Of a stretch of 28,344 nt of DNA, positions 2,036 through 28,287 are shown piece after piece. A program made the translations under genes and the position numbers. The number at the start of each line of letters is the position of its first letter. The stretch's first letter is position 1. Location of the stretch: positions 1 through 28,344 of the IMG/VR virus record IMGVR_UViG_3300017751_000151; one strand, written 5' to 3'. This DNA is from a virus. The notes under the pieces were generated by a model. The model saw only the letters and a list, made by a program, of their open reading frames with translations, did no database searches and had not been told where the DNA came from.

Positions 2036-2064
2036 TTTACATTATACCAAAACTGTGGTATAAT
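2036..2064 (+). promoter_or_regulatory. Strong sigma70-type promoter P1 with extended -10
   Basis: TTTACA (2036-2041), exactly 17 bp, then TATAAT (2059-2064) preceded by TGG, giving an extended -10. The same arrangement recurs at 8730, 12089 and 24251. It lies in the 64-bp gap after the SNase gene, and the expected start site near 2071 leaves a short leader with GGAG (2078-2081) before the ATG at 2087. It should drive the nucleotide-modification genes early, using host RNA polymerase. Confidence 0.88.
2041..2064. promoter_or_regulatory. Perfect inverted repeat over promoter P1 (candidate operator)
   Basis: ATTATACCA (2041-2049) and TGGTATAAT (2056-2064) are perfect reverse complements separated by AAACTG. 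The right arm contains the whole -10 element. A dimeric repressor bound here would block polymerase, or the dyad could act as a hairpin on the DNA. The other three promoters do not share this left arm, so this control would be specific to P1. The arms are A+T-rich, so chance remains possible. Confidence 0.4.
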
Positions 2065-2086: not shown

Positions 2087-2452
2087 ATGAAAGAATCTTT
2101 GAGAGTGCTACAAGAATGTGCTGAGCTACAAACACAAAAGTCCAATGACTATCAGAATCCAAATTCTAAAATAAGTCAAGCTGATTACTATCCGAATGGT
2201 ATCACAACCATTCATGACATTATGCATGCTAAAATGCTAAGAATGGCATCCGTTATGGAAGCTATGCAAACTAGCGACTATGAACCAAACTTTGAATCTC
2301 TTGAAGATTCAGCAAAAGATCTAATCAATTATGCATCATTCTTTGTTGCATATTGCAGACACGGTATTCCAGGTCAAGACTTAGATAAAGATGCATTTAA
2401 CTCTAATAATAATATTGGTTTAAAAGGAGATAATAATGTATCAAGTGAATAA
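2087..2452 (+). CDS. DUF1599/MazG-like all-alpha nucleotide-associated protein
   Basis: The 121-residue product has a helical layout with KSNDYQNPNSK (18-28), HAKMLRM (about 47-53), then SLEDSAKDLINYASFFVAY (71-89). The 'DY ... K..R ... ED..DLINYA' pattern is that of small phage DUF1599 proteins, which have been proposed as nucleotide-modification-associated relatives of the MazG/dUTPase all-alpha pyrophosphatases. Their substrate is not established. It is the first gene after promoter P1 and lies directly before the gp42-like hydroxymethylase, so a role in the modified-dCTP pathway (for example removing dCTP) is plausible but inferred. The last 17 bases overlap the next gene. Confidence 0.55.
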   Translation: MKESLRVLQECAELQTQKSNDYQNPNSKISQADYYPNGITTIHDIMHAKMLRMASVMEAMQTSDYEPNFESLEDSAKDLINYASFFVAYCRHGIPGQDLDKDAFNSNNNIGLKGDNNVSSE

Positions 2453-3116
2453 TACAGCAGACATAAAAGAAGTATTTAAGAAACACTTAGAAGCTAAAAA
2501 CTATGTAACTGATAAAACAGGTGTAAAGACTATTGAAATACTTGGTGCATCTTTTGTTGCTGATAAACCTGCTATCTTTGGTACTCCGAATGAAGAGTAT
2601 ATTAAAGTAGAAATTGATTGGTATAACTCTAGGTCAACAAATATAAATGATATCTATAATGATAAAGAAGCACCACAAGCTTGGCAATATACTGCAAATA
2701 CTCATGGTGAAATCAATTCTAATTATGGACATCTTATATTCAGTAAAAAATACCATAAACAATATCAACATGTTCTTCAAGAATTGTGTGAAGTTAATCC
2801 AGACTCACGTAGAGCTTCAATGATATACCAAAGACCAAACATATGGCGTGAGTATAAAGAAAACGGTAAGAATGATTTTATATGTACTAATGCTGTTACT
2901 TATTACATTCGAGATGGATACTTACATGCTGCAGTTCAAATGAGAAGCAATGATGTAATGTTTGGATATCGAAATGATTATGCTTGGCAAAGATATGTAC
3001 AAGAAAAACTACAAACTGATTTGTACTATAATGGTATTAAAACAGAACTTGGCCATATTTATTGGCAAGTGCAAAATTTACATGTATATGAGAGGCACTT
3101 TAATCTTGTTAAGTAA
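2436..3116 (+). CDS. 42: Deoxycytidylate 5-hydroxymethylase (T4 gp42-like)
   Basis: This is a 226-residue thymidylate-synthase-fold protein. Visible motifs are DKTGVKTIEILGASF (26-40), NPDSRRASMIYQRP (121-134, phosphate-binding Arg125/126), DFICTN (147-152, nucleophile Cys150), MRSNDVMFGYRNDYAW (169-184) and LHVYERHF (215-222). In thymidylate synthases the position of Asp181 is Asn and selects dUMP; Asp here is the diagnostic dCMP-hydroxymethylase residue (Asp179 of T4 gp42). The overall pattern matches remembered T4 gp42 closely. It would convert dCMP to 5-hydroxymethyl-dCMP with methylenetetrahydrofolate. A good Shine-Dalgarno (AAAGGAGA) precedes ATG 2436. The protein ends soon after LHVYERHF and so lacks the C-terminal tail of T4 gp42. 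Confidence 0.9.
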   Translation: MYQVNNTADIKEVFKKHLEAKNYVTDKTGVKTIEILGASFVADKPAIFGTPNEEYIKVEIDWYNSRSTNINDIYNDKEAPQAWQYTANTHGEINSNYGHLIFSKKYHKQYQHVLQELCEVNPDSRRASMIYQRPNIWREYKENGKNDFICTNAVTYYIRDGYLHAAVQMRSNDVMFGYRNDYAWQRYVQEKLQTDLYYNGIKTELGHIYWQVQNLHVYERHFNLVK

Positions 3117-3267
3117 TTACTGGAGACTATGGGCTAAGTCCCTAGGCGAAAAAGTTGGAGCTACCAACAAAGAAGCAAACACTATAGCTATAATGAGAAG
3201 TATTATTGTTTGGATGAACTTTATAACGTGTTTCTTTATCATATCTGGAGTAATACACAATTGGTAA
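3088..3267 (+). CDS. Small membrane protein (59 aa)
   Basis: The 59-residue product overlaps the end of the hydroxymethylase gene and the start of the dCMP deaminase gene. It begins with a YWRLWAKSLGEKVG segment, then KEANTIAIMRSI, and ends with one strong hydrophobic helix (IIVWMNFITCFFIISGVIHNW). The 'WRLWAKxLGEK ... EA ... IAIxR' layout is one I associate with short conserved proteins of marine T4-like phages. The function is unknown; it is a single-pass inner-membrane protein with an N-terminal cytoplasmic or amphipathic part. The exact start (ATG 3082 or 3088, or TTG 3107) is uncertain because no clear ribosome binding site is present. Confidence 0.6.
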   Translation: MRGTLILLSNYWRLWAKSLGEKVGATNKEANTIAIMRSIIVWMNFITCFFIISGVIHNW

Positions 3268-3695
3268 ATAAGTGGGATAAAAGATTTATGAATGTGGCTA
3301 TGGAAGTATCTTCATGGTCAAAAGATCCAAGTAAGAAGATCGGTTGTATTGCTGTAAAAGATAGAAGAATAATAGCTACAGGATTTAATGGATTCCCTAA
3401 AGGAATTGAAGATTTACCTGATAGGTTAAACAATAGAGAATTAAAATATAAGTATGTAGTTCATGCTGAAATGAATTGCATATATAACGCATCACACCAT
3501 GGGATATCTTTAAAAGATACAACAATGTATGTATATGGATTACCCACATGTAGTGAATGTGCAAAAGGTATTATTCAAGCAGGTGTAACAAGAGTTGTAT
3601 ACCAAGCAGAAGAAATACCATCACAATGGGAAAAAAGTAATATGTTAACAATTGATTTATTATCGGAGGCAAATATTAGTTATGAACGAGCCTAG
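3261..3695 (+). CDS. Deoxycytidylate deaminase
   Basis: The core is an intact zinc-dependent CMP/dCMP deaminase: SKDPSKKIGCIAV, then VVHAEMNCIYNA with the His-Ala-Glu zinc/proton-shuttle motif, then LPTCSECAKGIIQAG with the Cys-x-x-Cys zinc ligands. It converts dCMP to dUMP for thymidylate synthesis, as T4 Cd does, and would compete with the gp42-like enzyme for dCMP. I place the start at TTG 3261 with GGAG at 3247-3250, because homologous proteins begin close to the NKWDKRFM segment. An ATG at 3210 would add 17 residues that only mirror the upstream gene in another frame. The product is about 144 residues, normal for the family. Confidence 0.9.
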   Translation: MVNKWDKRFMNVAMEVSSWSKDPSKKIGCIAVKDRRIIATGFNGFPKGIEDLPDRLNNRELKYKYVVHAEMNCIYNASHHGISLKDTTMYVYGLPTCSECAKGIIQAGVTRVVYQAEEIPSQWEKSNMLTIDLLSEANISYERA

Positions 3696-3930
3696 GAATC
3701 CAAAATACACAGCAGATTGGTATTTAAAATGGATAGCTTCAATAATTGTACTATGTGCAATGTCAATACGTGGTGTAGCGGAATACGCTCAAATTGATTT
3801 ATATTTAAGTATTGTAGGTATAGGTTTATGGCTATGGGTATCTCTTATTTGGAACGATAGAGCATTGATACTTTTAAATGGTATGGGACTATTATTCCTA
3901 CTAAATAACTTATGGAAGAGTTTCTTATGA
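3682..3930 (+). CDS. Conserved small membrane protein (82 aa)
   Basis: The product starts MNEPRNPKYTADWYLKW and then has two to three hydrophobic helices (about residues 16-33, 40-55 and 60-76). It overlaps the deaminase stop upstream and the glycosyltransferase start downstream (ATGA), so it belongs to the same coupled transcript. The 'RNPKYTADW.LKW' start and 'IWNDRALILLNGxGL' end resemble a family of unknown function found in marine T4-like phages (family impression). GGAGG lies 12 bases before ATG 3682. No function can be assigned; it should sit in the host inner membrane. Confidence 0.7.
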   Translation: MNEPRNPKYTADWYLKWIASIIVLCAMSIRGVAEYAQIDLYLSIVGIGLWLWVSLIWNDRALILLNGMGLLFLLNNLWKSFL

Positions 3931-5186
3931 AGATAGGTGTAGGTAAAATAGGTAAATCAGTATTATTCGACAGCAGTCGTTGGGGTGCAGTTGGTGGAGA
4001 TAATGAAGCACCAATACTATTCGAACATTTAATCCGTAATAATCCTGAGCATGAATTTGTTTTAGTATGTCCATCAGATTATGATAGATTACCTTTAAAC
4101 AGACAACAAGAAATAAACGAACATGGTAATTTAACAAATGCATGGGAAAAGTTTTCACAATGGAAAAAAGATGGTAACTGGAGTCGTAACCATCCAGCAA
4201 GTGATAGACAAGAATTTATGGAAGATGTATTAATTAAAAATCCTGACTATAAAGTAGAAGTTGGTGTTTTTATGATGGGTATGTCAGCAACTTCTAATAT
4301 TCATGGTCATTCTAAATTAATGACTGATCATACAGTTCTTGCAAAACCATTAGATATGCAAAGAAGGTATGCTGGACCACCTGTCTATTATCTTAATCAT
4401 TATACGGATATAAAATGGATTATGTTACTTAATGACCCTAGATTATATCCAGGTAAAATGAGAGACTTATGGAATCCACCACAAAAAATCTTTTCACAAT
4501 ATAACGAACCTATAGTACATAAAAACTATGCATCGTATGATGATCCTACAAGACAAGAACATAATATCCAATGTAGCTATGATGCACTGGAAACAACATT
4601 TCTTATTGGTAAAAAACGTGGTGAAATGTTAGAAGAAGTGCCTAATAGTTTAGATAACTTTTTTGAAGATAAACCAAAGAGTGGTGAAAAAGATATTCAG
4701 TTTATGATAGTATGTAATGAAGGTAAACCATCTAGGTATCCTGACTTAAAGAAATATATACTTGACCATGTACAAGATGTTGACATATACGGGCAATGGA
4801 AACCTGAAACTATAGGTGAAGATAAAAGATTTAAAGGACCAAAGAAGTTTAATGATTTAATGCAGATGTTACCAAGAGTAAAATACACATTCTGTATTCC
4901 AATTAAAAAAGGTTGGGTAACTGCAAAGGTATGGGAAATGGCTCATTATGGTATTATACCTTTCTTACATCCAACGTATGATGAACAAGATAATCTTAAA
5001 GTACCTGACTTTATTAGAGTTAAAGATTCTGAAGATCTATTTAATAAAATTAAATTCTTAGAAGAAAAACCAAAAGCATATCAAGAGCTTAGAGATTTAC
5101 TTGATAACTTACTTAAAGATGAGTACTATGATGGCTCATATTTAAATAATAAAATTATGGGAGAATTAAAAGCTTATGCACAATAA
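3927..5186 (+). CDS. GT-B glycosyltransferase, T4 beta-glucosyltransferase-like; candidate 5hmC-DNA glycosyltransferase
   Basis: A 419-residue two-domain protein. In the N-terminal half, VYYLNHYTDIKW (153-164) parallels the YYLFTDIR segment of T4 beta-glucosyltransferase that holds the catalytic Asp100 (here Asp161). In the C-terminal half, KPSRYPDLKKYILD (267-280) parallels its phosphate-binding Arg region; DVDIYGQ, KRFKGPKKF and TAKVWEMAHYGIIPF (332-346, Glu337) parallel its FFGN and RVWETMASDAV segments, where Glu272 binds the UDP ribose. These matches rest on memory of the T4 protein. The gene lies just after dCMP hydroxymethylase and deaminase, so transfer of a sugar to 5-hydroxymethylcytosine in DNA is the favoured role. 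A glycan glycosyltransferase is the alternative. Start 3927 overlaps the previous stop. Confidence 0.62.
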   Translation: MKIGVGKIGKSVLFDSSRWGAVGGDNEAPILFEHLIRNNPEHEFVLVCPSDYDRLPLNRQQEINEHGNLTNAWEKFSQWKKDGNWSRNHPASDRQEFMEDVLIKNPDYKVEVGVFMMGMSATSNIHGHSKLMTDHTVLAKPLDMQRRYAGPPVYYLNHYTDIKWIMLLNDPRLYPGKMRDLWNPPQKIFSQYNEPIVHKNYASYDDPTRQEHNIQCSYDALETTFLIGKKRGEMLEEVPNSLDNFFEDKPKSGEKDIQFMIVCNEGKPSRYPDLKKYILDHVQDVDIYGQWKPETIGEDKRFKGPKKFNDLMQMLPRVKYTFCIPIKKGWVTAKVWEMAHYGIIPFLHPTYDEQDNLKVPDFIRVKDSEDLFNKIKFLEEKPKAYQELRDLLDNLLKDEYYDGSYLNNKIMGELKAYAQ

Positions 5187-6216
5187 AAGACTTATAGTAG
5201 ATTTTGATGACACAATAGCATTTACCAAAAATAGAGATTGGGATAATGCAAAGGCAAATACGACATTAATTGAAAAGTTAAATAAACTTAGTGATGAAGG
5301 TTGGACCGTAGATATTTTTACAGCTAGAGGTTCAATATCATGTAAAACAAGAGGAGAAGCAGAAGAAAAGTATAGTGACCAAATTAAAAATTGGTTAAGT
5401 AATCATAACGTAAATTATAATATGCTATCTTTTGATAAACCATTAGGTGCTTATTATATTGATGATAAAGGTATTACACCCGAAGATTTTATAGATACAG
5501 ATATTAGAGAACTTGAAGGTGGTTTATCAGGGTCAGACATTTATACTGATGGTAAACTAGTACACAAGACTGCTGATAATGCTCACTTAGCTCATGCGTG
5601 GTTCTCTTATGTAAATGGTTATTTAAATGTTCCAAGAATTGATAGAGTTGTAGGTAATACAATTACAATGGAATATATTGATCACGACGAATTCTATTTA
5701 AATAATTTTACATATAGAGCATTAGGATTAATACAAGAATCACTAGATAGAATGTCAAATATGGATGTACTAGAAAATAGCTACACATTTGATGATTATG
5801 TAAAAAGAATCAAAGGACATATTGAATTAGCAGGAGATATACCAGAGTTTACTGACACATTGCAAAGATTAAAAGAATTAGATTTACAACCAACGTTTTC
5901 ACATGGTGACTTTGGTGTCAAGAATATGTTATTTAAAGAAGATGAATTATTTTTAATTGATCCTATCTTAGATACATTTGGATGTACTGAACTTGATGTT
6001 GCTAAATTTATAGCATCATTATATATTAATCAATACGATGATATGACTTGTTTAGCTATCAGAACATTGTGTGCGTATAACAAATTTGAAGAAGAGGATA
6101 TTACTACTTTAGTTAAAGCAGAAATCATTAGAGTATACAAATATCACCCAGACAAACAATTTATAATTAATAAAGTACAACAGGCGGAAGCCGATTTTTG
6201 GAGAAGATATGAATGA
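5176..6216 (+). CDS. HAD phosphatase fused to an aminoglycoside-phosphotransferase-like kinase
   Basis: The 346-residue product has two domains. Residues 1-105 are HAD-like: VDFDDT (8-13, nucleophile Asp9 and Asp11), IFTARG (47-52, Thr49) and YIDDKG (94-99, Asp96/97), as in the small phosphatases found in capsule and sugar-phosphate loci. Residues 115-346 are kinase-like: a KLVHK segment, a YIDHDEF stretch, FSHGDFGVKN (241-250: Asp245 base, Asn250) and LIDPILD (260-266: metal Asp262), the Brenner motif of APH/choline-kinase enzymes. One protein thus could both remove and add a phosphate on a small sugar or alcohol. It overlaps its neighbours on both sides, in line with the following GT-A and cytidylyltransferase genes. 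The substrate is unknown. Confidence 0.75.
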   Translation: MHNKRLIVDFDDTIAFTKNRDWDNAKANTTLIEKLNKLSDEGWTVDIFTARGSISCKTRGEAEEKYSDQIKNWLSNHNVNYNMLSFDKPLGAYYIDDKGITPEDFIDTDIRELEGGLSGSDIYTDGKLVHKTADNAHLAHAWFSYVNGYLNVPRIDRVVGNTITMEYIDHDEFYLNNFTYRALGLIQESLDRMSNMDVLENSYTFDDYVKRIKGHIELAGDIPEFTDTLQRLKELDLQPTFSHGDFGVKNMLFKEDELFLIDPILDTFGCTELDVAKFIASLYINQYDDMTCLAIRTLCAYNKFEEEDITTLVKAEIIRVYKYHPDKQFIINKVQQAEADFWRRYE

Positions 6217-7111
6217 CATTTTTATAATAAGTAATAACATGGATAGATTAGTACAATTTAAAAAGTACTACAATATATTTCATGATGATACAAAAACACA
6301 ACTAAACGTAATATTAGATAATAGGAAAAAAGATTTTGACGTAAGTGAAATACTTGATACCTTTAATATTTACTATACAAAAGATATGTTAGAAGAGGTA
6401 AAACCATTATTTGATAATCCAGATATGATTGATAAAATACTAGACATATACGGAGTTGCTATTAAATGGTTTGTGTTTCCTTATGTGCATAAAATATTAC
6501 ATATTGAAAAAGCAATGATGATGGACGATGATGTATTTTTACTTCAACCAATAGATGAATACTTTAAAAAGGATTATGTTTATTACAATGAGTCAGCATT
6601 AGGAGTTATGTCAAAAGGTGTAGAAAATGTACTAGAGCCATTATATAGAGAATATGTTGATATTACTAAAATGAGAGAAAAGCCATGGTTTACATTAAAC
6701 TCAGGACAGATTATTCATAAAGACCACGATATGTTAATGACTTTTCTAAATAGAGCTTTACATCCGAATGTGTATAATCTTTTAATGGAAGCAACAGAAA
6801 AATATAAAGCAAAAGCTGGATTTATAAATACTAAAAACAAAAGAGTTATAGGTGGTAAGTTTTGGATTTTAGAACAAAACATATATGCTATCTATTACAG
6901 ATGGTTATCCGAGAATGGTTATGATGTGACCACATTTGGTACTGACATAAAAGTACATAGTGGTATTATGAAAGAGGATTTTGATATTTCAAGAACTAGA
7001 AAATTACCCAAGTATATACATTACCTTCCAACGGATAAAGAACCGCTATATACAATATATGCAAAACAAATTGATAGAATAATTAATGGAGAAGTGAATG
7101 TTCCTAGATAA
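6209..7111 (+). CDS. GT-A-type glycosyltransferase
   Basis: The 300-residue protein has an N-terminal beta/alpha region and the segment KAMMMDDDVFLLQPIDEYF (101-119) with a DDD metal/nucleotide-sugar motif at 106-108, typical of GT-A glycosyltransferases. Further on are LNSGQIIHKD and a GGKFWILEQN segment suitable for acceptor binding, and a late VHSG segment (His metal ligand in many GT-A enzymes). No membrane helix is seen, so it acts in the cytoplasm. It overlaps both neighbours by a few bases. It may add a second sugar to the DNA base made by the preceding genes, or decorate phage or host glycans; the sequence alone cannot decide. Confidence 0.7.
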   Translation: MNDIFIISNNMDRLVQFKKYYNIFHDDTKTQLNVILDNRKKDFDVSEILDTFNIYYTKDMLEEVKPLFDNPDMIDKILDIYGVAIKWFVFPYVHKILHIEKAMMMDDDVFLLQPIDEYFKKDYVYYNESALGVMSKGVENVLEPLYREYVDITKMREKPWFTLNSGQIIHKDHDMLMTFLNRALHPNVYNLLMEATEKYKAKAGFINTKNKRVIGGKFWILEQNIYAIYYRWLSENGYDVTTFGTDIKVHSGIMKEDFDISRTRKLPKYIHYLPTDKEPLYTIYAKQIDRIINGEVNVPR

Positions 7112-7529
7112 AACTAAATTACCAGAAAATGCAAAAGTTGGATTTACATGTTCCACTTTTGACTTATTTCATGCAGGTCATATCGTAATGTTACAAGAAG
7201 CCAAATCATTATGTGATTACTTAATTGTTGGTTTATTAATAGATCCTACAGTAGATAGACCTTCTAATAAAAACAAACCGGTACAAAGTCCATTTGAAAG
7301 GTATGTCCAATTATCTGCATGCAGATATGTAGACGAAGTTATACCTTTTACGACTGAAGCAGAAATTGTTGATATGATTTTAACAATTAATCCAGACATT
7401 CGTATAGTAGGTGAAGAATACAAAGACGTTGAACATACAGGAAAAGGGTTATGTCCAATACATTATAATAAAAGGAGACATTCGTTCTCATCAAGCGATC
7501 TTAGGGAGAGAGTAAAAAATGGAAAGTAA
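7098..7529 (+). CDS. TagD/RfaE-like cytidylyltransferase
   Basis: A 143-residue single-domain nucleotidyltransferase. GFTCSTFDLFHAGHIVML (15-32) has the HxGH motif (His25, His28), GLLIDPTVDRP and PFERYVQLSACRYVDEV follow the Rossmann layout, and RHSFSSSDLRERV near the C-terminus matches the ISTT-type nucleotide-binding motif. Relatives join CTP or ATP to glycerol-3-phosphate, phosphoethanolamine or a heptose phosphate. With the HAD-kinase fusion and two glycosyltransferases just upstream, it may make a CDP-activated group for transfer. Short length and the lack of a fused kinase favour glycerol-3-phosphate-type enzymes, but the substrate is not proven. It overlaps the GT-A gene and the methyltransferase gene. 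Confidence 0.82.
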   Translation: MFLDKTKLPENAKVGFTCSTFDLFHAGHIVMLQEAKSLCDYLIVGLLIDPTVDRPSNKNKPVQSPFERYVQLSACRYVDEVIPFTTEAEIVDMILTINPDIRIVGEEYKDVEHTGKGLCPIHYNKRRHSFSSSDLRERVKNGK

Positions 7530-8757
7530 AAATTTAACTTATGGTTCAATAGTACCATTAATCGGAGGTGAATCATTAGGTATTTCAGAATCATTAGGTG
7601 GTCAAAACCCTGAGTGGGTATTGTCATATTCTGACTTTGAAGCAAATGATGCTCACTATTTAAACTATTTAAGAACCAAGAAAAACTATACTGGTGATTA
7701 TGTAAAACTAGATGAGAATCCAAAGTATAAAGCAAAAAAGGTTGATATAGTAAATACTGTATGTCCATGTGCAGGGTTATCATCATTAAGTCAATCATCA
7801 TCAGGCGATAGTCCAACTAATAACTGGATGTATGAATCAGCAGAATATGTATTAGGTAATATACAGCCTAAAGTATTTTGGGGAGAGAATGCACCAAGAT
7901 TAGCACAAAGTACTGGTGTACCTGTAGTTAAAAAGTTACGTGAGATAGGTAAAAAACATGGGTATACACTATCCATTTTTAAAACTAAATCGCTTGTCCA
8001 TGGGTACTCTCAGATAAGAGATAGGACGTTCTATTTCTTTTGGAAAGGTAATAAAACCCCTTTATTTAATTACATCCACAAGCCACACCAAAGAATTGAA
8101 GACCTTTTAAAATCAATAAAAAATAAGAAAGGTGATCCTATGTCAGAAGTACATAACAAGCTAATACCTTCAGAAGATGTAGTTTATAATTGGATTCTAA
8201 AAGAACATGGAATGACACATAAAGAGTATGTAGAAAACCTAGAATTAACGAATGTTAACCTATATAATATACTTGATGAAATGGGTAAAGACAGGTTTGA
8301 TGCATGGCAAAGAATTATAAAAGAACTAGAAAATAAAGAAGATGATAAATCTGTTAGATGGCATCGTGTATTAAAAAGAATGTACGATAAAGAATATGCT
8401 GGTGGGTGTACTATGAGAAGAACAATCACAATACCTAATAATTACATTGGAGCTTTTGTAGGACATTTACCTCATCAGTTAACTCACCCGATAGAAGATA
8501 GATTCTTAACTTATAGAGAGATGTTAAGTATTATGTATTTACCTGAAGACTTTGAGTTATTAAATCCAAGAAGACAACTGAACCATATCTGTCAAAATGT
8601 ACCAGTGAAAACTGCAAGAGATATGATGGATCAAATTAAACTATATTTTGATAATAGGTTGGATTTAATTGACACTGAATACTTGTTACAAGATAACAAA
8701 AGAAAAGTGTATGAATATGAAAAAAACCATTTACAATTAGATGAATTTATGGTATAA
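7519..8757 (+). CDS. DNA C5-cytosine methyltransferase-like protein
   Basis: The 412-residue product shows most C5-MTase landmarks: a motif I-like SLGISESLGG (19-28), motif IV VCPCAGLSSLSQ (81-92) with nucleophile Cys84, motif VI WGENAPR (121-127, Glu123) and motif VIII YSQIRDR (163-169). The C-terminal half contains the target-recognition region and a THPIEDRFLTYREM segment, similar to the 'R.lt.rE..rlq' region before motif IX/X. It would methylate cytosine at C5 in a specific sequence. This is odd beside a dCMP hydroxymethylase, because 5-hydroxymethylcytosine could not be methylated at C5. Promoter P2 lies within its last codons and just beyond. The gene overlaps the cytidylyltransferase stop. 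Confidence 0.78.
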   Translation: MESKNLTYGSIVPLIGGESLGISESLGGQNPEWVLSYSDFEANDAHYLNYLRTKKNYTGDYVKLDENPKYKAKKVDIVNTVCPCAGLSSLSQSSSGDSPTNNWMYESAEYVLGNIQPKVFWGENAPRLAQSTGVPVVKKLREIGKKHGYTLSIFKTKSLVHGYSQIRDRTFYFFWKGNKTPLFNYIHKPHQRIEDLLKSIKNKKGDPMSEVHNKLIPSEDVVYNWILKEHGMTHKEYVENLELTNVNLYNILDEMGKDRFDAWQRIIKELENKEDDKSVRWHRVLKRMYDKEYAGGCTMRRTITIPNNYIGAFVGHLPHQLTHPIEDRFLTYREMLSIMYLPEDFELLNPRRQLNHICQNVPVKTARDMMDQIKLYFDNRLDLIDTEYLLQDNKRKVYEYEKNHLQLDEFMV

Positions 8758-8758
8758 T
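8730..8758 (+). promoter_or_regulatory. Strong sigma70-type promoter P2 (rpsU-uvsX)
   Basis: TTTACA (8730-8735), 17 bp, TATAAT (8753-8758) with TGG just before the -10. It overlaps the 3' end of the methyltransferase gene. The leader after it closely resembles that of promoter P3 at 12089: TATAATAGATT, then an A/T run and AAAAAGGAG. It should start transcripts near 8765 and drive the S21, UvsX and helicase genes up to the terminator at 12003. Confidence 0.88.
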
Positions 8759-8787
8759 AGATTATATATTATTAAAAAGGAGTGGCT

Positions 8788-9045
8788 ATGCCAACAGTAA
8801 ATTTAAGTCCTCGTAAGAGGCACCCAAAAGATAAACGCCCGTCTAAACCGATGCCTTTCGATATAGCTTTAAGAAAGTTTAGAAAGCAATGTGAAAAGGC
8901 CGGGATAGTTCAAGAAGTTCGTAAAAGAGAATTTTATGAAAAGCCTACAGCTAAAAGAAAAAGAAAAAAAGCTGAAGCTAAAAGTCGCCAACTCAAACAA
9001 ATGAGAATGGAAAATCAATATAATAGCCCGAGAGGCAGGAGATAA
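8788..9045 (+). CDS. rpsU: Ribosomal protein bS21
   Basis: The 85-residue product contains a full bS21 core from residue 22: [17 protein letters not shown], then [22 protein letters not shown] basic N-terminal extension of about 21 residues ([20 protein letters not shown]) precedes it. bS21 is a small-subunit protein near the anti-Shine-Dalgarno region that helps start translation; phage copies are known in marine phages and are thought to replace the host protein. The residue pattern is nearer to gamma/betaproteobacterial S21 than to the alphaproteobacterial form. It is the first gene after promoter P2 with a near-ideal AAAAAGGAG five bases before ATG 8788. The in-frame GTG at 8782 lies inside that site and is rejected as a start. 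Confidence 0.93.
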
Positions 9046-9048
9046 ATT

Positions 9049-10098
9049 ATGTCTATAATGGATAAATTGAGAAAGAATAGTAAAATCAAAAGTACTGATA
9101 TACTTGCTGATTCTCCACTATTCGCAGAGAAGGATATGATTCCTACAGATGTACCTATGGTAAACGTTGCGTTATCAGGGGATATGGAGGGAGGACTGTC
9201 ATCTGGACTAACAGTATTGGCTGGACCTTCTAAACATTTTAAAACAAGTTTTGCATTACTTATGGGTGCTGCGTATTTAAACAAATATGAAGATGCTGTA
9301 ATGTTATTCTATGATTCAGAGTTTGGATCACCACAAAAGTATTTTGAATCTTTTGGTATTGATACAAGTAGAGTATTACATACACCAATTCAAAATGTTG
9401 AACAACTTAAATTCGATCTAACAGGTCAATTAGAAAACCTTGAAAGAGGGGATAAGGTTGTTATAGTTATCGATTCAATCGGTAACCTTGCATCTAAGAA
9501 AGAATTAGAAGATGCACTTAATGAAAAGTCAGTGGCAGATATGTCAAGAGCCAAAGCGTTAAAGGGACTGTTCCGAATGGTTACTCCTTATCTTACGATG
9601 AAGAACGTCCCTTTACTTGCTGTTAATCATACTTATCAAGAGATTGGATTATTTCCTAAAGCAATTGTTTCAGGTGGTACAGGTATTTACTACTCAGCTG
9701 ATAACATTTGGATTATTGGAAGAAGACAACAGAAAAAAGGTACTGATATAACAGGGTATCACTTTATAATTAATGTAGAGAAATCAAGGTTTGTAAAAGA
9801 GAAATCTAAAATCCCAGTTGAAGTTACTTGGGAAGGTGGTATTTCAACCTATGGTGGAATACTAGATGTTGCTTTAGCAGGTGGATATGTAACTAAACCA
9901 AATGTTGGTTGGTATGCAAGAGTTGATAAAGCTACTGGTGAAATCGAAGATGGTAAGGTTAGAGAAAAAGATACTAAAACTAAAAAGTTCTGGGATCCAA
10001 TTTTTAAAGATACAGACTTCAAAGAATTTGTAAAAACATATTACTCAATTGGCCATAAGCCATTACTAGAAATTGATTTAGATTTTGAGGAAGAGTAA
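9049..10098 (+). CDS. uvsX: UvsX-like RecA recombinase
   Basis: A 349-residue RecA-fold protein. The Walker A segment AGPSKHFKTS (58-67) matches the UvsX form GPSKxFK rather than the bacterial GPESSGKT, and VVIVIDSIGNL (137-147) is Walker B with Asp142. LLAVNHTYQEIGLFPKAIVSGG covers the L2 DNA-binding region, followed by a UvsX-type C-terminal part ending LEIDLDFEEE. It forms filaments on single-stranded DNA and drives recombination-dependent replication and repair, as in T4. It starts three bases after rpsU and is followed directly by a coupled gene and the gp41-like helicase, the usual order in marine T4-like phages. Confidence 0.96.
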   Translation: MSIMDKLRKNSKIKSTDILADSPLFAEKDMIPTDVPMVNVALSGDMEGGLSSGLTVLAGPSKHFKTSFALLMGAAYLNKYEDAVMLFYDSEFGSPQKYFESFGIDTSRVLHTPIQNVEQLKFDLTGQLENLERGDKVVIVIDSIGNLASKKELEDALNEKSVADMSRAKALKGLFRMVTPYLTMKNVPLLAVNHTYQEIGLFPKAIVSGGTGIYYSADNIWIIGRRQQKKGTDITGYHFIINVEKSRFVKEKSKIPVEVTWEGGISTYGGILDVALAGGYVTKPNVGWYARVDKATGEIEDGKVREKDTKTKKFWDPIFKDTDFKEFVKTYYSIGHKPLLEIDLDFEEE

Positions 10099-10430
10099 TG
10101 TTTGATATTACTGAAAAAGATTACGGATTTGTGGATAACCAAAATCAGCCTATACAAGGTGTAATATATAAAACTGGGATATATAAAGACGTAATAGTTA
10201 TGTATGGAACAGTATCAGTAAAAGAGAGCCCTGAATTAGATATGGCTAGTTTAGGGTTTACATTTCAAATAGCTGACCCAGCAGAACATACTGTTGATGA
10301 ATTAGAAAAAGATGAGCACTTTAAGAATTACATGGGTGCAGTCTTACAACATATTATAGAACATAATTTAGATAGCGAAAAAGCAAGGATAGGAAATATT
10401 GAGTCAGATACTGCCAACACACATACTTAA
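10098..10430 (+). CDS. Conserved hypothetical protein between uvsX and gp41
   Basis: This 110-residue acidic protein starts MFDITEKDYGFVDNQNQ. It has a beta-strand-rich first half (GVIYKTGIYKDVIVMYGTVSV) and a helical second half (VDELEKDEHFKNYMGAVLQHIIEHN). It shares one base with the uvsX stop and overlaps the helicase start by 32 bases. A short gene at this place is common in marine T4-like phages, suggesting a role in the replication/recombination machinery, but no motif identifies one. It is not recognisable as the helicase loader gp59 or the UvsY mediator. Confidence 0.7.
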   Translation: MFDITEKDYGFVDNQNQPIQGVIYKTGIYKDVIVMYGTVSVKESPELDMASLGFTFQIADPAEHTVDELEKDEHFKNYMGAVLQHIIEHNLDSEKARIGNIESDTANTHT

Positions 10431-11784
10431 TCATTTACTCAACAATGAAGAATATTGCAGAAGAGTAATTCCATATGTTAAAAAGGAATACTTTGATGGT
10501 TCTCATAGAACGGTATTTGATTTAATAGTAAGTTTTGTAAATGCACATAATAAATTACCAACAGCTAAAGTATTAGATCTTGAGCTAAAAAAGATTAGTG
10601 CACATGAAGAAATATTAAATCAAGCATCAAGACTTATTGATGAAATACAAGAAAAGTCTGATATTGATACAGATTACCTAATTAAAGAATCTGAAAACTG
10701 GTGTAGAGAACGAGCAGTTTATAATGCTATAATGGAATCTATTCAGATCATTGATAAAAAAGATACAGAGAGAAGTGAAGGTGCTATACCTGAAATACTA
10801 TCTGATGCATTAGGTGTATCATTTGACCAAGCAATAGGACATGACTATATTGATAATTCTGATGAAAGATTTAATTTTTATAATCTTAAAGAAGATAGAA
10901 TTCCATTTGATTTGGATTACTTTAACAAAATTACAAAAGGTGGTTTACCAAATAAAACATTAAATATTGCTCTTGCTGGAACTGGTGTTGGTAAATCTTT
11001 GTTTATGTGTCATTGTGCAGCATCAGTTTTAGAGCAAAGCAAAAACGTTTTATACATCACAATGGAAATGGCTGAAGAGAGAATAGCAGAAAGAATAGAT
11101 GCTAACCTTATGAATTTGCCAATCGAACAATTATCATCTTTACCTAAAAAAGTATTTGACGATAAGATTGGAAAGATTGCAAAAGGGTCTATTGGTAAGT
11201 TAATTGTAAAAGAATATCCTACAGGTTCTGCTCATACCGGTCACTTCCGTGCACTACTAAATGAGTTAAAACTCAAGAAAAACTTTAAACCAGACATAAT
11301 ATATATAGATTATTTGAATATTTGTGCATCATCGCGTATGCGAGGCATGGGCGGAAGTATAAATAGTTATACATATATTAAAGCTATTGCGGAAGAACTT
11401 CGTGGATTAGCTGTGGAATTCAATGTACCGATAATGTCGGCAACTCAGACCACAAGGTCTGGCTTCGGTAATACCGATGTTGGCTTAGAGGATACATCTG
11501 AATCTTTTGGTTTACCTGCAACGGCTGACTTAATGTTTGCTCTTATTTCAACAGAGGAACTTGAAGAGTTAGGTCAATTACTGGTAAAGCAATTGAAGAA
11601 TAGGTATAATGATCCAACCAAATATCGAAGATTCGTGGTTGGTGTGGATCGTTCCCCCATGAAACTATATGATGTGGAAGAGTCGGCTCAGTCAGATATA
11701 ATGTCTGATATGACTCCCGACAAACCTATAAATAAGTTCGGTGAAAGAGAACAGAATGATTCTTTCGCCGATTTCAAAGTATAA
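10399..11784 (+). CDS. 41: DnaB-type replicative helicase (T4 gp41-like)
   Basis: The 461-residue product has an N-terminal helical domain (HLLNNEEYCRRVIPYVKKEYF, typical of DnaB N-domains) and a RecA-like motor: GTGVGKS Walker A (194-200), LYITMEMAEERIAER, PDIIYIDYLNI Walker B (about 294-304) and PIMSATQTTRSG (H3). It unwinds the fork 5' to 3' as a hexamer and would work with the phage primase. The start appears to be TTG at 10399 with GGATAGGA just upstream, inside the preceding gene; no ATG lies near. Parts of the C-terminal half (about 11.32-11.48 and 11.64-11.76 kb) look richer in G+C than the neighbouring sequence. Confidence 0.94.
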   Translation: MSQILPTHILNHLLNNEEYCRRVIPYVKKEYFDGSHRTVFDLIVSFVNAHNKLPTAKVLDLELKKISAHEEILNQASRLIDEIQEKSDIDTDYLIKESENWCRERAVYNAIMESIQIIDKKDTERSEGAIPEILSDALGVSFDQAIGHDYIDNSDERFNFYNLKEDRIPFDLDYFNKITKGGLPNKTLNIALAGTGVGKSLFMCHCAASVLEQSKNVLYITMEMAEERIAERIDANLMNLPIEQLSSLPKKVFDDKIGKIAKGSIGKLIVKEYPTGSAHTGHFRALLNELKLKKNFKPDIIYIDYLNICASSRMRGMGGSINSYTYIKAIAEELRGLAVEFNVPIMSATQTTRSGFGNTDVGLEDTSESFGLPATADLMFALISTEELEELGQLLVKQLKNRYNDPTKYRRFVVGVDRSPMKLYDVEESAQSDIMSDMTPDKPINKFGEREQNDSFADFKV

Positions 11785-26799: not shown

Positions 26800-27856
26800 A
26801 AGCAAAAAATCACATCTAACTAAAAATATGTTCTTAGATGAATCTGTAGATATACAAAGATTTGATTTGGTTAAATATCCACAAATCGAAAAAATAACAG
26901 AAAAACAATTAGGATTCTTTTGGAGACCCGAAGAGGTAGATATTTCAAAAGATAAAAAAGATTTCGACGGATTAACTGAACATGAAAAACATATCTTTAC
27001 ATCAAATCTCAAAAGGCAAATACTATTAGATAGTGTTCAAGGTAGAGCACCTAATATTGCATTCCTACCAATTGCTTCATTACCTGAAGTAGAAAACTGG
27101 GTAGAAACATGGTCGTTTTTTGAAACAATACATAGTAGAAGTTATACACATATTATCAGAAACATATATCCTGATCCTTCTCTAGTATTTGATGGATTAC
27201 TTGATGTGAAAGAAATACTAGAATGTGGTAACGACATTGCTACTTACTATGATGATTTAATAAAAGATAATAATTCAGCTACAAATAGGATGGACCATAA
27301 ACGTTCATTATACATGTGCTTGATGTCAGCCAATGCTCTAGAAGGAATTCGTTTTTATGTTTCCTTTGCATGCAGTTGGGCATTTGCAGAACTTAAGAAG
27401 ATGGAAGGTAACGCAAAGATTATCAAGTTTATTGCTAGAGATGAAAACACTCACTTAGCTGCGACCACAGTTATGATAAGAAATTTAATTAAAGAAGATA
27501 AAGATTTTGAAAAAATAGCAAAAGAAATGGAACCTCAAGCTACAAAATTATTTACTAAAGTTATTGAACAAGAAAAAGAATGGGCTGATTACCTATTTAA
27601 AAATGGTTCTATGATTGGTCTAAACGAAACTATATTGAAAGAATATGTTGAATGGATTGGTTGTAAAAGAATGAGAGCTATAGGGTTGACTTGTCCTTAT
27701 ACTGTGCCTCAAATGAATCCACTACCTTGGACGGAGAAATGGATATCTGGAGGAAATGTACAAGTTGCACCACAAGAAACGGAAATAAGTTCGTATGTTG
27801 TAGGTGGAGTTAAACAAGACGTATCGGAGGATACATTTAAAGGAATGGAATTATAA
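26783..27856 (+). CDS. nrdB: Class Ia ribonucleotide reductase, small subunit
   Basis: A 357-residue R2 protein with all iron ligands and the radical Tyr: LLDSVQGR (Asp83), SFFETIHSRSYTHI (Glu114, His117, Tyr121), LEGIRFYVSFACSWAF (third-helix Glu) and FIARDENTHLAAT (Glu and His). The spacing is almost the same as in E. coli NrdB (Asp84, Glu115, His118, Tyr122). It makes the tyrosyl radical used by NrdA. GGAG lies just before ATG 26783, and its stop overlaps the cytochrome gene start (TAATG), so the cytochrome is coupled to nrdB. Confidence 0.96.
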   Translation: MGILTKSKKSHLTKNMFLDESVDIQRFDLVKYPQIEKITEKQLGFFWRPEEVDISKDKKDFDGLTEHEKHIFTSNLKRQILLDSVQGRAPNIAFLPIASLPEVENWVETWSFFETIHSRSYTHIIRNIYPDPSLVFDGLLDVKEILECGNDIATYYDDLIKDNNSATNRMDHKRSLYMCLMSANALEGIRFYVSFACSWAFAELKKMEGNAKIIKFIARDENTHLAATTVMIRNLIKEDKDFEKIAKEMEPQATKLFTKVIEQEKEWADYLFKNGSMIGLNETILKEYVEWIGCKRMRAIGLTCPYTVPQMNPLPWTEKWISGGNVQVAPQETEISSYVVGGVKQDVSEDTFKGMEL

Positions 27857-28287
27857 TGAAAGGATATATAATAGCTATATGTTTGGCAATGATTGGTACA
27901 ATTGCTATGGCATATAATAATTTAGAATATAAAGATGTGCCAAGAACAACATCATGTACAGGTGAATGTTATATAGAATATGTTAAACTAAATGGCACAC
28001 CATCTGAGATAGAAAGACGTAAACAAGCATTGGCCGCCGAAGATGAATTTAGTTCTATTAAGGGATTATGGGCTGGATGCGCAGCATGTCATGGCCAAGA
28101 AGGAGAAGGGATGGGACCATTCCCTAAACTTGCAGGACAAAATGCAGACTATATTACAAGTAGATTATATGCATACAAGAACAGAGAAACAGTAGGTAAT
28201 ATGAGTTCTACAATGTGGGCTCAAGCTGGTATGTTATCAGAACAAGATATAGAAACAATTGGTAAATTTATTGAGGAAACATTATGA
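27856..28287 (+). CDS. Exported monohaem cytochrome c
   Basis: The 143-residue product has a signal peptide (MKGYIIAICLAMIGTIAMA, likely cut after residue 19), a linker with Cys34 and Cys38, and a class I cytochrome domain. GCAACHGQEGEGMGPFPKLA (74-93) holds the CxxCH haem site at Cys75-His79, and GNMSSTMW (114-121) supplies the Met axial ligand (Met116 or Met120). The fold resembles one half of cytochrome c4 or a c5/c553 type. Haem would be attached in the periplasm by the host Ccm system, and the protein could carry electrons to a terminal oxidase. It sits between nrdB and a glutaredoxin gene, which is unusual for a phage. Confidence 0.88.
   Translation: MKGYIIAICLAMIGTIAMAYNNLEYKDVPRTTSCTGECYIEYVKLNGTPSEIERRKQALAAEDEFSSIKGLWAGCAACHGQEGEGMGPFPKLAGQNADYITSRLYAYKNRETVGNMSSTMWAQAGMLSEQDIETIGKFIEETL

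Follow-up and report, generated by a model that had tools for sequence, protein, structure and literature searches.

A predicted DNA-cytosine hypermodification locus with an exchangeable putative sugar-activation module in a T4-like phage

What is attached to the DNA of a T4-like phage that encodes, next to a deoxycytidine monophosphate (dCMP) hydroxymethylase, its own glycosyltransferase and a kinase, a phosphatase and a nucleotidyltransferase? The question is raised by a densely packed set of modification genes that extends from a promoter-like element, P1, to position 8757 of the IMG/VR virus record IMGVR_UViG_3300017751_000151. The whole stretch analysed (28,344 nucleotides, hereafter the window) is a 28.3-kb fragment of a marine T4-like phage that encodes a gp42-type hydroxymethylase, UvsX, a DnaB-type (gp41) helicase and a ribonucleotide reductase. 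The locus very likely encodes hypermodification of DNA cytosine, and it probably does so through a nucleoside diphosphate (NDP)-sugar, with the GT-B enzyme named here GT1 as the DNA transferase. Sugars on the phage's own cytosines would serve as an armour against bacterial defences. The elements of the locus are the following.

2036..2064, + strand: P1, promoter-like element (TTTACA-17-TATAAT with TG) upstream of the cassette
2087..2452, + strand: DUF1599-like (nucleotide-modification-associated) protein
2436..3116, + strand: gp42-type dCMP hydroxymethylase, P0002 (Cys150, Asp181)
3210..3695, + strand: dCMP deaminase, start codon uncertain
3652..3930, + strand: small DUF6552 protein, probably membrane
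3927..5186, + strand: GT1 (P0004), virus-specific GT-B glycosyltransferase, proposed DNA transferase
5176..6216, + strand: HAD phosphatase (EcbF-BcbF type) fused to an APH-type kinase
6209..7111, + strand: P0006, GT-A (GT8-like) transferase with the DxD motif MMMDDD, optional second transferase
7098..7529, + strand: nucleotidyltransferase of RfaE-II/TagD type
7519..8757, + strand: MT (P0008), C5-cytosine-methyltransferase-like protein with a polymerase-type clamp tail, LQLDEFMV

The genes named by the first-pass annotation exist at about the positions it gave, and its calls of a hydroxymethylase fold, a deaminase, a HAD protein and a cytidylyltransferase-like protein were backed by Pfam, PHROG and NCBIfam. 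Its limits for the cassette (2087-7529) proved too narrow, as the locus reaches 8757 and takes in MT, an overlooked DUF6552 gene and the neighbourhood of uvsX-gp41. P0002 matched the solved gp42 in the PDB at E 5.2e-69, the next group being the thymidylate-synthase (TS) chains 9iqc and 9iqu at E 6e-9, and its TS/hydroxymethylase fold was supported by the family databases. Asp181, previously singled out as diagnostic, was confirmed by alignment with the specificity Asp of gp42, and Cys150 aligned with the catalytic Cys.

The linkage of these genes is conserved. The 103 GT1 loci collected fall into 42 clusters at 90% identity, 30 of them with enough context; a gp42-type or TS-family gene is present in 28 of the 30, the MT gene in 27 and an activation module in all 30. 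This module is of type A (HAD-kinase plus RfaE-type nucleotidyltransferase) or type B (HAD plus NTP_transferase-kinase) in 28 clusters, and the other two have an NTP_transferase-HAD fusion with a cupin-like gene, in one case with an epimerase downstream. Loci L025 and L094, where no gp42-type gene was detected within the fetched flank, were counted as exceptions. When the HAD-kinase was taken as the starting point, 30 distinct loci with context had gp42-type (29), nucleotidyltransferase (30) and MT (29) neighbours. Among 64 non-redundant loci with both TS-family and MT genes, GT1 was accompanied by type A in 18, by type B in another 18 and by other modules in 4; in 8 loci GT1 was missing but an A or B module was present, and the other 16 lacked all of these. 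Comparable gene logic was found in phages of unrelated hosts (Pseudoalteromonas phage XG4, Enterococcus phage Planchet, Agathobaculum phage AB434P2 and a fecal phage contig), and literature searches turned up no published work on this cassette.

For GT1, no confident family was found in Pfam, PHROG or NCBIfam, and neither BGT (PF09198) nor AGT (PF11440) was matched at E<=1. Membership of the BGT or AGT sequence families was therefore dropped and the claim limited to resemblance of fold. Profile searches of the PDB with the GT1 and P0006 alignments also gave no meaningful match. A GT1 model built from 16 relatives (pLDDT 82, pTM 0.82) had T4 BGT as its top PDB match (Foldseek E 1e-7; VIA-align Z 19.4 over 309 residues, root-mean-square deviation 4.1 A), with BshA (17.5), T4 AGT (15.5) and the phage HY126 glycosyltransferase (15.4) as VIA-align runners-up. 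The Bgt-like landmarks reported earlier are thus upheld for the fold but not for the sequence family, and the common BGT-like GT-B fold would not by itself establish the function of GT1. The GT1 family is virus-specific and hardly occurs in bacterial genomes: when 84,980 genomes of prokaryote species were scanned, a relative was located on only one contig, a 28-kb metagenome-assembled-genome contig that matches an IMG/VR viral contig in length and coordinates, this near-absence being a lower-sensitivity result obtained with short peptide patterns. Two variants were seen around GT1. At locus L030 (5895-7983) it is missing, and the same stretch holds an AGT-family protein (PF11440, E 1.8e-8) with a C-terminal tail of the clamp type described below, whose gene adjoins a probable adenine-type DNA methyltransferase. 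In a third module type, a small protein with weak similarity to uracil-DNA-glycosylase is encoded just 5' of GT1 (L118:8568-9020 and L106:8501-8872).

MT matched PF00145 at E 1.1e-16, and the Pfam match was present in 15 of 15 members. Its catalytic (motif IV) Cys, an ENxP/ENV-type motif VI and a QxRxR motif VIII vary little or not at all among 15 relatives. Profile matches begin downstream of the region of the S-adenosylmethionine (SAM)-binding motif I (FxGxG), where a conserved PLIGG is found instead. The protein may methylate the remaining cytosines or carry out a repurposed reaction on 5-hydroxymethylcytosine (hmC).

The C terminus of MT bears a tail of the pattern L..F[FMLI], as does the phage's own DNA polymerase; in T4-like phages the polymerase binds the sliding clamp through its tail. 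Among distinct MT proteins 101 of 121 have the tail, as do 33 of the 69 GT1 proteins, but it occurs in none of 97 hydroxymethylases, 89 deaminases, 57 DUF1599 proteins, 50 HAD-kinases, 42 nucleotidyltransferases, 33 NTP_transferase-kinases, 30 HADs and 15 GT-A proteins. It was also present in 88 of the 1369 remaining open reading frames (ORFs), 32 of which belong to one family-B DNA polymerase family by Pfam and 55 to other modification-locus proteins, the one remaining case being probably spurious; shuffled tails showed the pattern in 0.3%. As MT and many GT1 proteins share this polymerase-type tail, they would travel with the clamp and have DNA as their substrate, and the distribution of the tails speaks for a role at the replication clamp rather than at the cell surface. 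The rule that the tail occurs on the predicted DNA-acting enzymes and not on the makers of precursors could serve as an inexpensive guide to more enzymes that modify DNA.

Judged from sequence comparison, the HAD-kinase fusion and the nucleotidyltransferase form a putative sugar-activation module, whose HAD and kinase parts have homologous counterparts in the RB69-type arabinosyl-cytosine cassette. The HAD half matched the EcbF-BcbF model TIGR01689 (E 5.2e-16) and, by hhalign, a HAD alignment including those of the Mosigvirus-type cassette (99.8%), and the kinase half matched the C-terminal domain of the RB69 ORF53_52c family (hhalign 96%). The APH kinase call was below the cut-off in Pfam, PHROG and NCBIfam searches; the APH-type motifs HGD...N and IDP are invariant in 11 relatives. 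The nucleotidyltransferase matched PF01467 (E 8.5e-16) and TIGR02199 (E 1.3e-21). In the synthesis of ADP-heptose, a kinase, a phosphatase and a nucleotidyltransferase act in this order, and as the module follows it, an NDP-sugar would be the product. Arabinose was first reported for RB69 (PMC6024577) and is carried on 5-hydroxycytosine by Mosigvirus phages (PMC13390438); inactivation of the homologue in phage Thanatos nearly stopped phage growth (PMC12838424).

P0006 has a DDD motif that is invariant among relatives, had no matches in the phage collection and showed no similarity by BLAST to the transferase of Mosigvirus, and its GT8-like label, drawn from modelling, is tentative. Locus L013 differs only by the clean absence of this GT-A gene, which is therefore an optional add-on.

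The module is exchanged between close relatives. The type-B locus L015 and the type-A loci L055 and L057 share 97.2% DNA identity across 9 kb that end roughly 60 bases short of the end of GT1. Past this point their modules are unrelated, and where the MT gene begins identity resumes, at 92% across 6.6 kb; their hydroxymethylases are identical. A chimeric assembly was ruled out as the source of the swap, since the two arrangements are borne out by 8 contigs of type A and 4 of type B. The same kind of module difference separates the window from L024. The sugar-activation block is exchanged in place by recombination while the rest is retained, in a manner that can be likened to the swapping of capsule types in bacteria, and MT stays nearly constant while the decoration modules vary.

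The evidence is evenly balanced on a wider proposal, that the stretch from the hydroxymethylase to MT is a recombination hot spot at which whole decoration modules are exchanged among marine T4-like phages (HAD-kinase/RfaE, RB69, NTP_transferase-HAD/cupin, UDP-galactopyranose-mutase and inositol-phosphate-synthase/HMUDK types), giving phage DNA switchable 'serotypes' around a core with a near-constant, clamp-tethered MT. If this were true, different modules would attach chemically distinct groups, allowing evasion of modification-dependent restriction. Two further gene sets were observed between deaminase and MT. At L162:3521-9001, and also at L144, L153, L157 and L168, these are a myo-inositol-1-phosphate-synthase-like gene and a small HAD-like gene, and loci of this type also encode an HMUDK_hel protein (helical domain of the 5-hydroxymethyldeoxyuridine DNA kinase), a 340-aa protein without a family assignment and, in some, an FkbM methyltransferase; these genes are possibly for an inositol-phosphate decoration of DNA. 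At L151:6103-9001, a UDP-galactopyranose-mutase (GLF, E 3e-53), an epimerase-like gene and a 379-aa protein are found, for which galactofuranose on DNA is possible.

From the observed gene content, motifs, folds, linkage, exchange and tails, every chemical step of the following pathway is inferred. The gp42-type enzyme would make 5-hydroxymethyl-dCMP, the deaminase would, by analogy with T4, help to move the dCMP pool towards dUMP and dTMP, and the phage polymerase would incorporate the modified nucleotide into DNA. The HAD-kinase and the nucleotidyltransferase would convert a host sugar phosphate into an NDP-sugar, with phosphorylation at C1, removal of the far phosphate and nucleotidyl transfer in that order; the ADP-heptose route has this sequence of steps, and the RB69 arabinose genes offer an analogy. 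GT1, with its BGT-like fold, would then transfer the sugar to the hmC of the DNA. The GT8-like enzyme, found only in some relatives, would probably add a second sugar, and MT would act on the same DNA at the replication clamp. Given that the HAD and kinase have homologues in the RB69-type cassette and that a sister phage carries an RB69-type block in place of the whole set, these genes most simply supply the first sugar in its activated donor form. The first-pass annotation had proposed a larger modification, with a second sugar or a phosphoglycerol-type group as examples. The homology and exchange just described make phosphoglycerol less likely, the extra genes more likely building an activated sugar than an additional group of this kind, and a second sugar is possible through the optional enzyme at 6209-7111.

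Several observations weigh against this pathway. The window's own GT1 is without the clamp tail; as AGT of T4 binds the clamp and BGT does not (PMC13216743), this does not exclude it as a DNA transferase. The P0006 model was poor (pLDDT 58), and its best matches were of glycogenin/LgtC type, with Z up to 11. An arabinose-5-phosphate (A5P, SIS) isomerase, found in Mosigvirus, was not found in XG4 (158 kb) or in a 170-kb relative, and arabinose was therefore not adopted as the sugar. Full replacement of deoxycytidine is no more than conceivable: the gp56- and gp1-like genes whose search had been advised were not found in the window, itself a fragment, and in the 170-kb relative the gp1 match was marginal and a phrog_173 match absent; XG4 has a phrog_173 gene adjoining its cassette. 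Lastly, the closest solved relatives of the nucleotidyltransferase are ethanolamine-phosphate (E 1e-23) and glycerol-3-phosphate cytidylyltransferases, which act on phospho-alcohols. This last point, with a weak match of the kinase to choline kinase, favours an unlikely alternative, in which kinase and nucleotidyltransferase make cytidine diphosphate (CDP)-glycerol, -ethanolamine or -choline and the base receives a phospho-alcohol. Such a route would leave the phosphatase superfluous for choline or ethanolamine, and it is at odds with the likeness of GT1 to NDP-sugar transferases, with the heptose-1-phosphate adenylyltransferase domain as best NCBIfam match of the nucleotidyltransferase, and with a HAD and kinase homologous to those of phages with arabinose on cytosine (PMC6024577, PMC13390438).

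That same homology could also suggest the base of the RB69-type phages, 5-hydroxycytosine (PMC13390438), with the TS-like enzyme making 5-hydroxy-dCMP and the sugar ether-linked directly to C5. This is very unlikely for the window, as P0002 is about 52% identical to T4-type gp42 and about 26% to the Mosigvirus enzyme, and a tree that contains several long outgroup branches grouped it with gp42 and marine relatives (94/93), separate from the Mosigvirus/Winklervirus 5-hydroxy-dCMP branch. The specificity Asp also occurs in the TS-family enzyme next to the Pseudoalteromonas phage cassette and in those adjoining the cassettes of the Enterococcus, Agathobaculum and fecal phages. In the latter three it suggests that dCMP is the substrate, despite the annotation of the Agathobaculum protein as a dUMP enzyme.

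It is highly improbable that the transferases and sugar genes alter the host surface through lipopolysaccharide (LPS) or O-chains and adjoin gp42 by chance, as EcbF and RfaE being surface-polysaccharide families and the published reading of pelagimyophage rfaE/GT8 genes (PMC7029224) might suggest, in view of the linkage to gp42-type genes (28/30 for GT1 and 29/30 for HAD-kinase), BGT as top fold match, the clamp-type tails, the near-absence of GT1 from bacterial genomes and a position that is that of known DNA-modification genes. A clear assignment of both transferases to LPS or capsule enzymes, which would have spoken against the earlier idea of cytosine hypermodification by a gp42-type and a Bgt-like enzyme, was not obtained for GT1; conserved linkage, the T4/RB69 position, the fold match and the tails all favour that idea.

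In the layout of the window, the modification genes precede uvsX-gp41, as in the T4-type phage RB14 and in Mosigvirus (the gp42...uvsX-gp41 position of T4 and RB69). The DUF1599-like protein matched phrog_18404 ('hydrolase', E 6.5e-13), Pfam PF07659 gave E 0.13, below the cut-off, and its gene is a conserved neighbour of gp42 in relatives. The deaminase matched PF00383 (E 1.9e-21) and phrog_174 (E 6.6e-47), and the DUF6552 protein (PF20189, E 1.7e-16) is kept in the closest relatives. The cassette had been described as coupled genes behind P1; most adjacent genes do overlap by 4-17 nucleotides and the promoter-like element is present, but a gap of 93 nucleotides lies 5' of the deaminase. The element TTTACA-N14-TGNTATAAT has four exact + strand copies in the window (2036, 8730, 12089 and 24251), against an expected count of 0.09 with up to one mismatch allowed. 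The features that follow the cassette are these.

8730..8758, + strand: second promoter-like copy at the cassette end, 5' of S21-uvsX-gp41, overlapping the 3' end of the MT gene
8782..11784, + strand: landmarks outside the pathway, namely S21 (8782-9045), UvsX (9049-10098) and gp41 helicase (10399-11784)

Elsewhere in the window, a GroES-like co-chaperonin (1298-1561) accompanies the ribosomal protein S21 homologue (8782-9045), S21 having been reported as core to pelagimyophages. The ORF that follows nrdB (27856-28287) opens with a signal-like stretch, contains the haem motif CAACH and resembles a phage-encoded cytochrome c. Between 13564 and 22098, a run of ORFs opens with similar short leaders (MKNFN.., MKTFK.., MKDFK.., MNFKS.., MKDYF..) that recall the capsid-targeting leaders of T4; phosphatase-, ligase- and nucleotidyltransferase-like proteins are among them and may be packaged in the head.

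Known phage DNA glycosylation is that of a few model phages, and the present locus connects hmC with a virus-specific GT-B family and with a module of kinase, phosphatase and nucleotidyltransferase, both of them new. As the module is replaced in place in near-identical genomes, natural near-isogenic pairs are available for asking which genes set the sugar. The LPS reading of rfaE/GT8 genes in marine phages (PMC7029224) is challenged, at least for loci of this kind, and the prediction is directly testable in the cultured phages XG4 and Enterococcus 9183.

Compared with known systems, the locus resembles the hmC glucosylation of T4 (gp42, BGT, AGT) in its gp42-type enzyme, its BGT-like transferase fold and its position before uvsX-gp41; it differs in that GT1 lies outside the BGT and AGT sequence families and that the window phage encodes donor-making genes and an extra C5-methyltransferase-like gene. 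With the RB69/Mosigvirus cassette (ORF53_52c, HAD, A5P isomerase, TS-like enzyme) it shares position, a homologous HAD and APH-type kinase, a nucleotidyltransferase and a TS-family enzyme. RB69, however, has an NTP_transferase domain where the window has its RfaE-II/TagD-type nucleotidyltransferase, no A5P isomerase was found in XG4 or the 170-kb relative (the window being a fragment), the window enzyme is of gp42 type and not of the 5-hydroxy-dCMP-synthase branch, and the transferases differ. The deoxypentosyl-cytosine system of Shewanella phage Thanatos includes an NTP_transferase-kinase (TH1_060) whose family stands in for the window's module in sister phages, but the Thanatos sugar is linked without a hydroxymethyl group (PMC12838424) and the window carries the other module type. 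ADP-heptose synthesis (HldE, GmhB) has the same reaction order of kinase, HAD phosphatase and RfaE-II-type nucleotidyltransferase, whereas the window kinase has an APH and not a ribokinase fold, in a context of DNA modification instead of LPS. Finally, MT keeps the Cys, ENxP, QxRxR and C-terminal region of the C5-cytosine DNA methyltransferases (PF00145), and differs from them in an N-terminal SAM motif I unrecovered by profiles, in its polymerase-type clamp tail and in its place within an hmC locus.

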